This document shows positions 20,417 through 26,687 of a stretch of 64,000 nucleotides of DNA, piece by piece. Source of the DNA: Thermomicrobiales bacterium. GTDB lineage: Bacteria > Chloroflexota > Chloroflexia > Thermomicrobiales > UBA6265. The translations under genes and the position numbers were made by a program. The stretch lies in NCBI GenBank assembly GCA_023957015.1, contig JAMLHR010000012.1:1-64000 (forward strand), read 5' to 3'. The notes beneath the pieces are model-generated. The model saw only the letters and a program-made list of their open reading frames with translations. It was not told the origin of the DNA and made no database searches. How positions within the stretch are numbered: position 1 is the first letter of the stretch; every line of letters starts with the position of its first letter.

Positions 20417-20652
20417 GTGATGTCGATCCTTGAGGCGAAACGATACTTCTGGAACGCTAGTATCGCCTCATTCATCCGCGCCGTACAGTCGCCACTATGT
20501 TCAGTTGCGCAGAATGGACCCGAAAAGGAGTAGAGAATCGTCCGTAATTCCGGTACTCTGGTGGGAGACAAACATTATCAGCCCGCCCCCCGCAGGGCGT
20601 GTATGGAAACCGGATGCCAGGCATGCGGTTCAACCACAGGACGGAACCCGTA

Positions 20653-21439
20653 ATGAAGACCCCCCGCAATCGCAGGCTAACTCTCCTGGGAGGATTGGCA
20701 CTGTCTGCGACGTTAATCCTGAGCGCGTGCGGTAGCGACGAGACCCCCACGCCAACCGCCACCACCGTGCCACCGACAACCGTCCCGACGGAAATCGCGC
20801 CAGAGCCAACCGAGACTCCGGCTCCGACCAATACACCGGAACCAACAGCGACAAACACACCGGAGCCAACTCCGACCAACACGCCGGAACCAACGCCGAC
20901 CAATACGCCGGAACCAACCCCGACGAACACGCCGGAACCAACACCGACGAACACGCCGGAGCCAACACCGACGAATACGCCGGAACCAACGCCGACCAAT
21001 ACACCGGAACCAACCCCGACGAACACGCCGGAGCCAACACCGACGAATACGCCGGAACCAACCCCGACGAACACACCGGAGCCGACTCCGACGAACACGC
21101 CGGAACCAACCCCGACGAATACGCCGGAGCCGACTCCGACCAATACACCTGGAACCAACGCCGACGAACACGCCGGAGCCGACACCGACCAATACGCCGG
21201 AACCAACGCCGACGAACACGCCGGAGCCGACACCGACGAACACGCCGGAGCCAACACCGACGAACACGCCGGAGCCAACACCGACGAACACGCCGGAGCC
21301 AACACCGACGAACACGCCGGAGCCAACACCGACTCAGCCGGTCATCGCCACTCCGGAAGCGACGCGAGAGCCGGTGAATGTCGAGTTCTACACCGCTGGT
21401 ACGGATCTGGGTGCGTGGCTTCGGTCACTGGTTCCGTAA
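20653..21439 (+). pseudogene. Repeat-rich lipoprotein, frame-broken by one extra base
   Basis: The ATG at 20653 (MKTPRNRRLTLLGG) opens a lipoprotein signal ending in ILSACGSD (lipobox LSAC). A very long Pro/Thr spacer follows, made of about 22 copies of an eight-residue unit (TPTNTPEP). At 21150 one repeat reads ACACCTGG instead of ACACCGG; this extra T shifts the frame, and the remainder is read as ADTDEHAG-like repeats to a stop near 21468. In the original frame the repeats continue and finish with PVIATPEATREPVNVEFYTAGTDLG..., ending at 21439. Such spacers hold a lipoprotein domain away from the membrane; here the terminal domain is only about 30 residues. The shift may be a real phase change or a sequencing error in the repeat. 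Confidence 0.65.
20823..21345 (+). repeat. About 22 tandem 24-bp repeats (Pro/Thr spacer)
   Basis: The 24-bp unit has the form ACNCCGGANCCAACNCCGACNA, with third-position variation only, which shows selection on the protein (TNTPEPTP). It is not a CRISPR: there are no unique spacers and no palindromic repeat. Such arrays expand and contract by slippage. Confidence 0.85.
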
Positions 21440-21500
21440 TAATCCTGACGCGAGCGGAATCACATTAACGTGGCTCACTCGTTACATCAGCAAAACAAAC

Positions 21501-21638: not shown

Positions 21639-24196
21639 ATGACGACAGCAAATACCGATGTTGGACTTGAGATTCGGAATTACGATGAGGGACTGATTTC
21701 CGTCGTCGTTACCGCGGCCTCATCGGTGTCAGCAGCAAGCTCCCGATTCGTGACCGCTCGATCCTCTCCCTTGTCTACACACCGGGTGTGGCCGCCGCTT
21801 GTACCGCGATCGAGCACGATCCCGTGCGCAGCTACGATCTCACCTGTCGCGGTAACACCGTCGCCTTGATCTCGGATGGCTCCGATCTCTTCGGTTCCAC
21901 CGGTGCCGCCGATCCCAATCCGTTGGCGGAACTACCGGCAGCTGAGGGCAAATCCGTCATCTTTAAGACCTTCGCTGGCGTCGATGCCTTCCCGGTCATG
22001 CTCAATACCACCCGCATCGATGAGATCGTCGAAACCGGCGTCGCCCTGGCCCCAACTTTTGGGGCCATTTGTCTGGACGATATCGCCTCGCCACGCGCGT
22101 TCACGATCGCAGAGACGCTGGAGCGTGCCGCAAACATCCCCGTATTCAGTAATCAACACCACGGCACCGGCGTAATGGTGCTCGGTGCACTCTATAACGC
22201 GCTCAAGGTAGTTGGTAAACGCCTGGAAGATGTCCATATCGTTCTTAGCGGCGCGGGTATCGCCGGTATCGGTGCCGCCTGCCTGCTCACCTGGGCCGGT
22301 GCCCGCAATCTCGTGGTCTGCGATCGGGCCGGTGCGATCTACAACTATCGACCGGATCGAATGAACTGGGCCAAGGCCTGTCGCAAAAGAGACCAATCAC
22401 GAGGAACGCAAGGGTTCGTTGGCCGAGATGATGGTCGGCGCCGATGTCTTATTGGTCTCACCCGGCGATATCGTCACCGAAGCGATGGTGCGCTCAATGG
22501 CGCCGGACGCTATCGTGCTGGCACTGGCGATCCCGACACCGGAGATCAATCCAGAAGCCGCGCGCGCCGGTGGTGCCCGCGTAATCGCTACCGGTCGTAG
22601 CGACTTCGCCAATATGCTCGATACCAGTATCGTCTTCCCGGGCTTCTTCCGCGGACTGCTGGACTCCGGTGCCCGCAATATCCGTCTACGGATGCTACTA
22701 AACGCCGCCCGCGCGGTTGCCGACATGGTGCCGGATAGCGAGCTCCACGCCGATCATATCGTGCCCCACATCTTCGATTTCCGGGTCGCACCGCAGATCG
22801 CTGCGTCGGTGGTGCGCACTGGGTTATTGAGACCGGCGAAGCAACCCGCGAGATCACACCGGAAGAAGTGGCGGAGAAGACGCTGCGCTACGTCTATGAG
22901 GGTCGGCTGGAAAGACCCCGACCGAGTCTGCGCAAGAATGGCGATAATGCTGGCCACAGCTTCAATGACGAAGCGATCGATCTTCGTGAACGCCATCACG
23001 GTATCATCGAGATCGAGAGCAAGGTGCCGATTAGGGATCACCACATCCTCAATATGCTCTACCTGCCGCCTGCTGCACTTGCACCGAGCTACGCCGCCCG
23101 TGAGGATCCAAATCAGGTCTTCGAGCTTACCAGTAAGGGCAACCTGGTCGGTATCATCACCGATGGTTCCGCGGTGTTGGGTCTCGGCGATATCGGACCG
23201 CAGGCAGCCATGCCAGTAATGGAGGGCAAGGCGGCATTGTTCCGCTCGTTGGCTGGCGTTGAAGCCTTCCCCATCTGCCTGGCCGAGCGCGATCCAGACG
23301 AGATCGTGAAGCGCGCCGTGGCCATCTCGCCGTCGCTCGGTGGTATCAATCTGGAGGATATCGCGGCGCCGCGCTGTTTCGAGATCGAAGAGAAGCTCAA
23401 GGCGGCGCTCGACATGCCGGTGTTCCACGACGATCAACACGGCACAGCCATCGTCGTCCTGGCAGCGATGTTGAACGCCGCCAAGCTGATCCGCCGTGAT
23501 CTGAGCGAACTCAGCATTGTCGTCAACGGTGCCGGTTCGGCCGGTATGGCCGTGACCAAACTACTCGCGAAGTCCGGTGTTAAGGATGTGATCCTCTGCG
23601 ATCGCACCGGAGCTATCTATGCTGGTCGCAAGGAAAGCATGTCTCGCTATAAAGACGAGATCGCGCAGACAACGAATCTCCAGGGCAAGCAGGGATCGAT
23701 AGCCGATGTGCTGGTAGGTGCCGATGTCTTCATCGGCCTTTCCGCACCCAACACCCTCACCACCGAGATACGAGCGCACGTTCAGAATCTTCGTCCTTCG
23801 CGCTTCACAACTCGACAACCTCAGAGATTTGTCTTGATGCTGAGCGCCTTCCGAGGCATGGCGTCTTCGCTGTCACCGGTCGCCCGAACGCTGAACGAGG
23901 TAACGCACAGATCCGCTGGCGCTCCGGATTGCCCAAAAACGATACGATACGCTGACAGAGATCTTATTGCAGGTCGGTAATATCACACGCGAAGCACCAC
24001 GATCTGCTGCCAAAACGCCAAGCTCTCACCGGACTTCCTGATTCCGGATAGCCTCGATCTGCGGGTTGCGCCACGAGTGGCGGCAGCCGTCGCGGCAAAG
24101 GCGTACGAACAGGGACTCGGACGAGCCACAATCACACCGGAGGAGATCGAAGCACGCACACGTGATATGGTCTATGAAGGTGTTGTGTTCAACTAG
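21639..24196 (+). pseudogene. Double (fused) malic enzyme, frame-disrupted
   Basis: The ATG at 21639 follows GGAGAGG. Reading across frames gives two malic-enzyme domains in one chain. Domain 1: RGLIGVSSKLPIRDRS, VYTPGVAAAC, IFKTFAGVDAFP, ICLDDIASPRAF, VFSNQHHGTGVMV, LSGAGIAGIGAA. Domain 2: IESKVPIRDHHI, LFRSLAGVEAFP, INLEDIAAPRCFEIEEKL, VFHDDQHGTAIVV, VNGAGSAGMAV. The frame is open across the domain junction (about 22812-23230), which argues for a fusion. Shifts occur near 21697, 22385 and 22815, and the stretch 23790-24040 is badly damaged. The end (PDFLIPDSLDLRVAPRVAAAVAAKAYEQGLG) is normal. Domain 1 lacks the metal Asp pair (NQ for DD); domain 2 has Arg/Ser where the catalytic Lys is usual. 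The stop overlaps the ribosome site of the next gene. Confidence 0.7.
22868..23980 (+). CDS. Longest open piece of the double malic enzyme (domain 2)
   Basis: This 370-residue frame (in fact open from about 22812) carries the end of malic-enzyme domain 1 (EKTLRYVYEGRLERP), a linker, and most of domain 2 including the metal-binding LEDIAAPRCFE, the VFHDDQHGT signature and the NAD-binding GAGSAG. The last 60 residues (after HVQNLRP) are out of the ancestral frame. NAD(P)-malic enzymes convert malate to pyruvate and CO2. Confidence 0.6.
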   Translation: MAEKTLRYVYEGRLERPRPSLRKNGDNAGHSFNDEAIDLRERHHGIIEIESKVPIRDHHILNMLYLPPAALAPSYAAREDPNQVFELTSKGNLVGIITDGSAVLGLGDIGPQAAMPVMEGKAALFRSLAGVEAFPICLAERDPDEIVKRAVAISPSLGGINLEDIAAPRCFEIEEKLKAALDMPVFHDDQHGTAIVVLAAMLNAAKLIRRDLSELSIVVNGAGSAGMAVTKLLAKSGVKDVILCDRTGAIYAGRKESMSRYKDEIAQTTNLQGKQGSIADVLVGADVFIGLSAPNTLTTEIRAHVQNLRPSRFTTRQPQRFVLMLSAFRGMASSLSPVARTLNEVTHRSAGAPDCPKTIRYADRDLIAGR

Positions 24197-24207
24197 GAGT
24201 ATCACGC

Positions 24208-24669
24208 GTGACGGATGACGCCCAATTCGAGTGGCACCCAATCTACGCCGGCAGAACGTACGAGAGCGTGCAGCGCGAGCTTGCCGACAGTATTCGTAGC
24301 GATCAGCGCGCCTACCACGGCGCGCTGGACAACGCCGAACGCGAGGAGTTTGGCGCGTTTGCGGCCGTTCGGGATATCGAGAAGCGCTGGAGCAGCTACG
24401 ATCTCGGTTGGGCGGAGATGGATGCCGATACCCTCGCGCAGCGCATCACAGCGTTCGAACGCGCACGTGAGGATCAACAGGCGATGATCAGTTGGGACGA
24501 ATGGCGCGGCATGTCGCTCACACCGTCGGCAACTGCTTCCACCGAGAAGACGGACTGGCGTAGAACCCAAACCGATGAACAGAGACGCAAGCTCGCATCA
24601 GTGATTGCCATCACCATCCTGGTGATGTTCTTCGTCCTGGTGGTGATCATTCTGACTGTGGTGTTCTAG
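24208..24669 (+). CDS. Hypothetical C-tail-anchored membrane protein
   Basis: The GTG at 24208 with AGGAG overlapping the malic-enzyme stop gives 153 residues. The protein has a soluble, charged N-terminal part (EWHPIYAGRTYESVQRELADSI...AEREEFGAF) and one transmembrane helix near the C-terminus (about 130-152, SVIAITILVMFFVLVVIIL) with no positive tail after it. That arrangement places the soluble part in the cytoplasm. No family was recognised. It is probably co-transcribed with the malic-enzyme gene. Confidence 0.65.
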   Translation: MTDDAQFEWHPIYAGRTYESVQRELADSIRSDQRAYHGALDNAEREEFGAFAAVRDIEKRWSSYDLGWAEMDADTLAQRITAFERAREDQQAMISWDEWRGMSLTPSATASTEKTDWRRTQTDEQRRKLASVIAITILVMFFVLVVIILTVVF

Positions 24670-24692: not shown

Positions 24693-25438
24693 CTACGCCA
24701 GATTCAACTCCGCAGCGGCCCCGGCTTCAACGATCAGTTCGGCCCGGGAACCAGCCAGCCCCATCCACGATCCCGGCAGATCGCTGGTCATCGGTCCCTC
24801 GACCATCTCCTTGACGACACCCGCCTTGGAGGCGCCGTTGACGATCATGACGACCTTCTCCGCCTCCATGATGGTGCCGATACCCATGCTCATGGCACGT
24901 TCGGGGATGGTTGCACCTCGTAGTAGGCAGCATTCTGATCGCGACTCTCGCGCGTCAGATCGACCACACGCGTGCGCGTCTCCGCACTCGACCCCGGCTC
25001 GTTGAATCCGATGTGTCCATTCGGACCGAGCCCGATCACCGCCAGCTTCAGACCACCGGCAGCAACGATCTCCGCCTCGTAGTCCTTTGCGGCCTGATCG
25101 GGATCATCCGCAGTGGAAGGGATGAAGTGGACGTTATCGAGATTGATATTGGCGGGAATCAGGAAATCGCGAAGCAGCAGCTTGGTCAGCGCCGCAGCGT
25201 CATCGGGAGTAACACCGAGGTACTCATCCAGACAGAAGATCTGCACGCGAGAGAAATCCAGCTCGCCGGCGTTGATTCTGCGCGCCAACTCGGTGTACAT
25301 CCCAACCGGGGTCGATCCGGTGGGAATCGTGATCGCGCCATCCGGGTAACGCTGCACTACCGCAGCCACACGCTCGGCGGCGGCAATGCTCATGGCATCG
25401 TAATCCGACACGACAGTAATCGACGGTTTGACAGACAT
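24693..25438 (-). pseudogene. nagB: Glucosamine-6-phosphate deaminase, one frameshift
   Basis: The ATG at 25438 opens MSVKPSITVVSDYDAMSIAA. NagB motifs are all present: TIPTGSTPVGMY, VQIFCLDEYLGV (catalytic Asp), IGLGPNGHIGFNEPGS (catalytic His and phosphate loop), and TRESRDQNAAYYE. Near 24912 the frame breaks: GAGGTGCAACC must be GAGGGTGCAACC to read GATIPERAMSMGIGTIM-A, which continues in another frame to the stop at 24693 (KVVMIVNGASKAGVV). A single missing G in a short G-run explains it, so the enzyme may be intact in the real genome. NagB converts glucosamine-6-phosphate to fructose-6-phosphate and ammonia. Confidence 0.78.
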
Positions 25439-25570
25439 GCTTCCCTACTCCACCCCAGATCAGGACAGGACCAATTCGTCCCTCGATTGTACCCCGGAAC
25501 CCACCAAAGGTCGGCGCATTCTGGCCCAAATCCCCTGATCACGCCACAATACGTGAGAAGGAGGACGCGG

Positions 25571-26687
25571 ATGACATTTGAGTCAGTTGCGAAGTCAATC
25601 AGCACCTGGGTGAATGACGGCGTGATCGCCGGAGCCAGTATCGCGGTGGAACACCGCGGAGAGTTGGTGGCGCTATACCATGTCGGCGAAGCGACACCGG
25701 GTGTGAGCGTGGATGACCAGACGCTCTTCGGGTTAGCCTCGCTCTCCAAGCCAGTCACCGCCGCAGCCTTCATGACGCTGGTCGATGATGGTCTGGTTGA
25801 ACTCGATACACCGGTCGTCGATGTACTTCCCGATTTCGGGGCCGACGTCGATCCACTCAACGCCAACGCGATACTCGAAGCCCAGCGGGATGAGATCACC
25901 TTCCCGCATGTTGTTGGCGCATACCAGCGGTTTACCTGAGAATCCTGGACCGGAACTCTACAATCCCTCCACGCTCCCCACGCGTGAGCAGCAAACCGAT
26001 GCCATGCTGAAGACACCACTCGTCTCGGCACCTCACGAAATCCTTCGCTATAGCAACGTTGGACCCGGAATCGCGGCACGTGCCGCCGAGGAGTTGCTGG
26101 GTAGTGATTTCCTGGACATCACCCGCGAGCGTTTCCTGGAACCAATGGGATTGGGCGGTATCGTCCTGAATCCGGATCGGAATCAGGCTCAACGCATCGT
26201 CACGCTGCAGGACCCAGCCAATCCCGGCACAGCCTGGGAGACGTACAACTCGGCCTGGTGGCGCGAGTGTGCGGTGCCATGGGGAGGCTATTACGGTACC
26301 ACTGCAGACATGCTGCGCTTCGCGACATCGTTTCTTCCTGGCCGGGAGTCTGTGCTTTAGCACCGGCGCGCGGTGAGATGACAATCGATCAGGTGCGAGG
26401 ACTCGAAGGGGAGTGAATAGCATGCATGCCCATTGGGTGCCCGGATATTGGGGACTTGGCTGGGAGGTAAAGGGCACCAAGCAGCGCCACTGGACTGGTG
26501 CCCGAACGTCCGAGCATACCTGGGTGCATTGGGGATTCGCGGGAACGCTGTGCTGGGTGGATCCCGCCGCGCGAACTCGGTGTGGCGGTCTTCGCCAATC
26601 GATCGGTGAGCAGTGGTTGGATGTTTAAACCACAACGCTGGGCTCACCAGCGATGCCTTGTGTGATGTAGCGGATGGACTGATATGA
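25571..26687 (+). pseudogene. Beta-lactamase-fold serine hydrolase, several frameshifts
   Basis: The ATG at 25571 after GAAGGAGG opens a class-C beta-lactamase-like protein. The nucleophile motif is SLSKPV (Ser-x-x-Lys) near residue 55 and the Tyr motif is YSN in LRYSNVGPG. LLAHTSGLPENPGPELY is also typical. The frame shifts near 25925, 26355 and 26570; the last piece reads RELGVAVFANRSVSSGW and then SDALCDVADGLI, ending in a TGA at 26685-26687 that overlaps the ATG of the next gene. That intact ATGA overlap shows the original frame was whole. Proteins of this fold include esterases and D-peptidases; the substrate is unknown. Confidence 0.7.

Follow-up and report, generated by a model that had tools for sequence, protein, structure and literature searches.

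The closest described relatives of the protein analysed here are the small (group 1, MaeB-type) malic enzymes (MEs), such as those of AYWB Candidatus Phytoplasma (PDB 5cee), Thermotoga maritima (1vl6), Pyrococcus horikoshii (2dvm) and Entamoeba histolytica (3nv9), which have the same fold and the same motifs as each of its two halves. In small MEs the tyrosine of the YTPG motif is supplied to the active site by the partner subunit (PMC7902834, PMC11944484): Y52 of BbMaeB is donated in trans (PMC7902834), and in EhME Tyr65 of YTPGV lies beside Asp193 and Lys120 of VMEGKA, the motif in which the catalytic lysine of a small ME is located (PMC11944484). A review of the PEP-pyruvate-oxaloacetate node covers small, phosphotransacetylase (PTA)-hybrid and large MEs, with no tandem ME among them (PMC8100219), and our search of the open-licence literature for MEs in tandem, double, fused or duplicated form brought up no such description, though one may exist elsewhere.

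Here we describe a tandem (double) ME gene that very probably encodes a fused ME dimer with one remaining active site, a composite of both halves. This reading is supported by the conserved fusion, the reciprocal motif losses and the single origin of the architecture, and structural models are consistent with placement of the tyrosine of the first half in the second. Small MEs are homodimers with two identical sites, whereas the tandem joins two unequal halves in one chain and would hold one site between them. The gene lies on the + strand at 21639..24196 of the window, i.e. the 64,000-nucleotide stretch from a Thermomicrobiales bacterium (contig JAMLHR010000012.1) that was analysed as a whole, and runs from an ATG at 21639 to a TAG stop at 24194-24196. 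As a reference we used an intact 852-codon orthologue from a Thermomicrobiales MAG of the same genus (L029:1768-4323). Pfam families PF00390 and PF03949 each match the tandem in two stretches, its PDB sequence matches are headed by 5cee, 2a9f and 1vl6, and both halves are small MEs of ~410 amino acids per domain. Two other identities were rejected, namely an ME-PTA hybrid, as the Pfam scan contained no PTA family and a second ME makes up the C-terminal half, and a large (group 2) ME, a single-domain protein of ~550 amino acids, as two domains are present and the closest structures are those of small MEs. An earlier sequence-only reading of this stretch had proposed two joined ME domains, and the intact fusion found in relatives bears this out.

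The first half of the gene (D1) spans 21639..22826 and the second (D2) 22961..24196, and the junction between them (22827..22960) is continuously open in frame 2; in relatives, D2 starts at a constant spacing of 420-427 residues from D1. D1, the proposed Tyr donor, retains the YTPGV loop (21776..21790, Tyr codon at 21776-21778) that is proposed to enter the active site of D2, together with an EGK motif (Lys codon at 21950-21952) and an LDD motif (22073-22081). Its metal and NAD(P) site is degenerate, with SNQHHGT at 22148..22168 instead of HDDQHGT, such that the aspartate which tunes the lysine and the metal-binding aspartate are both lost to the NQ at 22151-22156. D2 harbors a complete Lys, metal and NAD(P) site, with MEGKA at 23219..23233 (catalytic Lys codon at 23228-23230, assigned after PMC11944484), the metal ligands of LED at 23351..23359 and HDDQHGT at 23426..23446, which carries the Asp pair for lysine tuning and metal binding. 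The degenerate part of D2 is its Tyr loop, where LYLPPAAL replaces LYTPGVA (23057..23080): the tyrosine itself is still there and the YTPGV context is gone. The catalytic lysine of the VMEGKA region is retained by both halves of the window gene.

To place these differences in the family as a whole, we aligned between 68 and 73 tandems per site with 56 single MEs. YTPG was present in D1 of 68/68 tandems and in D2 of none of 73. The tyrosine of the altered D2 loop was kept in 69/73 and replaced by His, Cys or Phe in the other four proteins, and D2's own tyrosine therefore seems dispensable. D1 had lost the first Asp of DDQ, the one that tunes the lysine, in 69/69 proteins, the Asn of ANP in 68 of 71, the Lys in 15 of 68 and usually the malate and NADP residues. 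D2 had kept the catalytic Lys of VMEGKA in 73/73 proteins, the LED Glu and Asp as well as the two DDQ Asp residues in 72/72 each, and the ANP Asn and the NN pair in 70/70 each. The sequence-only reading had correctly assigned YTPGV and an altered DDQHGT to D1, and DDQHGT and LED to D2. It had further compared IFK in D1 with LFR in D2 as the position of the catalytic lysine and concluded that D2 lacks this residue, an assignment we reject since the catalytic lysine resides in VMEGKA (PMC11944484) and is present in D2. Its point on LYLPPAAL stood with regard to the YTPGV context; the tyrosine itself is still encoded in this genome.

The set of Tyr, Lys, Glu, Asp and Asp-Asp is thus incomplete in either domain and complete across the two halves together, so that, at the level of sequence, reciprocal loss has left one composite set. 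As this pattern recurs in every tandem relative examined, it is not due to chance. The complementary active-site losses suggested earlier are real, with the affected residues being not quite those first listed. Decay, which had been put forward as the alternative source of the motif changes, was rejected, as the same changes are found in intact genes of many genomes.

These counts also bear on whether the chain is still an ME. Although the Tyr loop and the whole of one half have changed, and although there are ME relatives whose activity was lost or altered, the oxaloacetate decarboxylases (PMC8100219), it is highly improbable that the chain has turned into a regulator, a pseudoenzyme or the catalyst of another reaction (oxaloacetate decarboxylation, or one on a related 2-hydroxyacid): D2 shows no variation at its Lys, metal, ANP and NN positions across two phyla, and the tandem gene is the sole ME found in the window's genome. 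A purely regulatory or moonlighting protein, as had been considered in the sequence-only reading, is unlikely for the same reason, namely the invariant catalytic core of D2.

Since small-ME subunits exchange their tyrosines, this unusual distribution of motifs points to a specific mechanism. With D1 and D2 paired as two subunits are, the tyrosine of D1 would reach the D2 site and that of D2 the D1 site, and of these two sites one would be complete and the other stripped of its residues. Such pairing would also lead the exchanged segment to be kept in D1 and the core in D2, and every protein fits: the exchanged segment of D1 is nearer than that of D2 to single MEs in 68/68 proteins, and D2 is the nearer of the two both in the catalytic core (68/68) and in the NAD domain (69/69).

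We propose that the ancestor was a small ME forming an entangled dimer, in which the YTPGV tyrosine of each subunit would have resided in the active site of its partner, and that a head-to-tail duplication of its gene would have joined both copies into one chain. D1 would then have become the Tyr donor, losing the Lys-tuning Asp, the metal ligands and the malate- and NAD(P)-binding residues, and D2 the catalytic body, losing its own Tyr loop, which would have served only the dead D1 site. Each chain would be left with one composite site, to which D1 contributes the tyrosine and D2 the Lys, the Glu/Asp/Asp set and the NAD(P) site, and would catalyse the usual ME reaction, in which malate undergoes metal-dependent oxidative decarboxylation, yielding pyruvate, CO2 and NAD(P)H. 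Most likely, the protein would be a working ME that has a single site in each chain and provides pyruvate and NAD(P)H, and its halves would work only as a joined pair, as had been suggested and as the losses of the D1 metal site and the D2 Tyr loop indicate. The tyrosine that D2 has kept in 69/73 proteins may make a residual catalytic contribution. We infer that the enzyme is active, that D1 and D2 of the same chain pair with each other, and that the losses occurred in the order given; pairing of D1 with D2 between two chains would fit the sequence data equally well.

Structure predictions were made with AlphaFold2 for the same-genus orthologue (L029; pLDDT 90.9, pTM 0.90) and for a ~50% identical protein of another phylum (L050, the Desulfobacteraceae locus used for Desulfobacterota; pLDDT 88, pTM 0.89), and the arrangement of the two halves is confidently predicted in both models. 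Structures of small MEs each align to one half alone, with fold Z scores of 46-52 (5cee on D2: Z 52, 1.1 Å, 50% identity). Large MEs align as a composite in both models, starting in D1 before its tyrosine and ending at the C-terminus of D2; by the end points of the alignments, human ME2 (1pj4_A) extends over 34-848 of the L029 model (376 residues, 2.4 Å) and over 21-839 of the L050 model (381 residues, 2.4 Å). In the models, these large-ME alignments, known by their end points, support placement of the D1 Tyr region with the D2 core, and the entangled pairing with a tyrosine from the other domain is predicted within one chain in both. A structure search of viral proteins returned nothing relevant.

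The models also weigh on a simpler reading, in which D2 alone is the enzyme, as a D2-D2 homodimer possibly made from an internal start and using its own tyrosine in the LY(L/V)PP loop, and D1 is a regulatory or structural appendage. We consider this improbable. The catalytic core of D2 is complete, its tyrosine is kept in most proteins and the record of Thermomicrobium roseum annotates a D2-only CDS, all of which agree with it, but both AlphaFold2 models put the D1 Tyr region with the D2 core, four D2 domains have His, Cys or Phe instead of the tyrosine, the T. roseum frame is open across both halves, and nothing in this reading requires that YTPG be lost from every D2 and kept in every D1.

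In this type strain (DSM 5159), the tandem comprises 841 codons with no inner stop (L167:4789-7314; NC_011961.1 292666-295191). The CDS WP_041437577.1, as listed in the PLSDB gene table, spans the second half only (293956-295191) and as annotated would be without the YTPGV Tyr donor; the open frame covers both halves.

The fused architecture is ancient and has been conserved in two bacterial groups. In 44 of 60 relatives, a single open frame of 767 codons or more covers both halves, and a match was obtained in 53 among these relatives and the window's genome; the frames of several remaining relatives are shorter, apparently interrupted by contig ends. A search of Chloroflexota genomes for the same fused architecture, which the sequence-only reading had named as a check, found the tandem to be the rule within the window's order. 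That reading had also allowed for relatives with two separate genes or a single intact ME instead, and within the order this was not the case. Across 400 genomes of the phylum, full-length matches to a junction-spanning query were limited to the window's order and two genomes from a different family (G268 and G307); in the other Chloroflexota, the MEs are of the ordinary single kind or the frames are ~760 codons long. One genome (G010) carries a separate single ME (C1:9115-9870, in a 490-codon frame) beside its tandem (L008). The tandems of G268 and G307 (L121 and L122) represent a second, very divergent Chloroflexota lineage, in which D2 reads LYLYPGLS and the D1 Lys motif is changed as well (LEDAC, seen in L121). 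In the phylum Desulfobacterota, the same architecture was found in 36/297 genomes.

In a tree built from 41 tandems together with 28 single MEs (a quick search with SH-aLRT support and no bootstrap), all D1 domains formed one clade (SH-aLRT 100) and all D2 domains another (94), with the single MEs apart. This topology is most simply explained by one duplication-fusion, with labour divided early between the halves; the presence of the tandem in two phyla may reflect either descent or transfer.

The window copy of the gene is broken in this assembly. Compared with the intact same-genus protein, it falls into four frame pieces, in frames 3 (21639-21695), 2 (21689-22399), 3 (22380-22826) and 2 (22766-24193), with frame changes at ~21695, 22379-22400 and ~22820. 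It further contains a scrambled stretch (23767..24026) with ~25 small indels relative to the same-genus gene, which hides the ANP and SDYPNQ motifs of D2 and in which differences are not concentrated at third codon positions (43%). The sequence-only reading had already noted three or more frameshifts and a damaged stretch, and both were recovered in this comparison. In four clean stretches, the share of third-position differences is 83%, 68%, 74% and 93%, the last being that of the C-terminal part directly after the scramble, and since 68-93% of the differences fall at these positions, the clean parts are under purifying selection. The frame breaks are peculiar to this assembly and cluster at ~21.6-26.7 kb, and the other window genes compared read in one frame.

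Judging from these patterns, the breaks are probably a local sequence error, the alternative being recent decay. That the window copy is decaying or dead, with the family functional elsewhere, seems unlikely to us: its three frame breaks and 260-base scramble would agree with decay, as would the breaks in two downstream genes, one nagB-like (24705-25441, - strand) and one serine-hydrolase-like (25568-26681, + strand), but the damage is confined to this region, the clean parts, including the 3' end behind the scramble, differ mainly at third positions, and a scramble of near-equal length between clean parts resembles a noisy consensus.

Just upstream of the ME gene, a lipoprotein-like frame (20599-21468, + strand) contains a long TPEPTPTN-type repeat, and its first 29 residues alone match the same-genus homologue at the threshold used. 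Right behind the ME gene begins a small protein whose C-terminal segment is hydrophobic (24208-24669, + strand); it occupies the same position in the same-genus genome (56% identity) and perhaps forms one operon with the ME gene.

As for the inactivated half, the motifs of the D1 pocket are clade-specific (SNQHHG, HHEFHA, DSDQHA and NNHGLG), being nearly constant within clades and different between them. Such clade-wise constancy in sequence suggests a new ligand or a structural role. We tentatively raise the possibility that, throughout a widespread class of such tandems, the dead D1 pocket, rebuilt with these motifs and capped by the altered Tyr loop of D2, binds an allosteric effector and thereby controls the live composite site via the shared entangled segment.

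If the fused-dimer reading is true, the tandem is a natural half-of-sites ME, with one live and one dead site, that was fixed in two bacterial groups, and, after monomeric isocitrate dehydrogenase (IDH), a second central carbon enzyme to have become monomeric by duplication. It offers a clean natural setting in which to test the trans donation of Tyr by small MEs, and it illustrates that an automatic annotation may pick up the C-terminal half and nothing else, giving a product without the catalytic Tyr loop. The small-ME fold, the trans-donated tyrosine and monomerisation by duplication (in monomeric IDH, PMC5979607) are already known; a tandem ME with reciprocal half-site losses does not feature in the ME review and structure papers (PMC8100219, PMC7902834, PMC11944484).

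Among known systems, the entangled small-ME dimer with its trans tyrosine is the presumed ancestor of the tandem. The hybrid ME-PTA enzymes (MaeB of E. coli and Bdellovibrio bacteriovorus) resemble it in having an ME domain of the same group, a length of ~760-850 amino acids and a partner-domain tyrosine, but their second domain is a phosphotransacetylase-like sensor and that of the tandem is an ME. The large (group 2, eukaryotic-type) MEs, such as human ME2, take the tyrosine and the Lys/metal site from one chain, as we propose for the tandem, yet they achieve this with one ME domain carrying Tyr and Lys insertions (PMC11944484) rather than with two fused small domains. In the plant mitochondrial NAD-ME heterodimers, two unequal ME paralogues cooperate as the two halves of the tandem would, but as separate chains of the large type, fusion and reciprocal small-type motif loss being absent from that account (PMC8100219). 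The nearest parallel in history is the monomeric NADP-isocitrate dehydrogenase of the Azotobacter/Corynebacterium type, in which, according to PMC5979607 (citing Yasutake 2002), a dimer became one chain by duplication and one catalytic site was lost; it belongs to an unrelated enzyme family, and in the tandem both complete ME domains are still recognisable.
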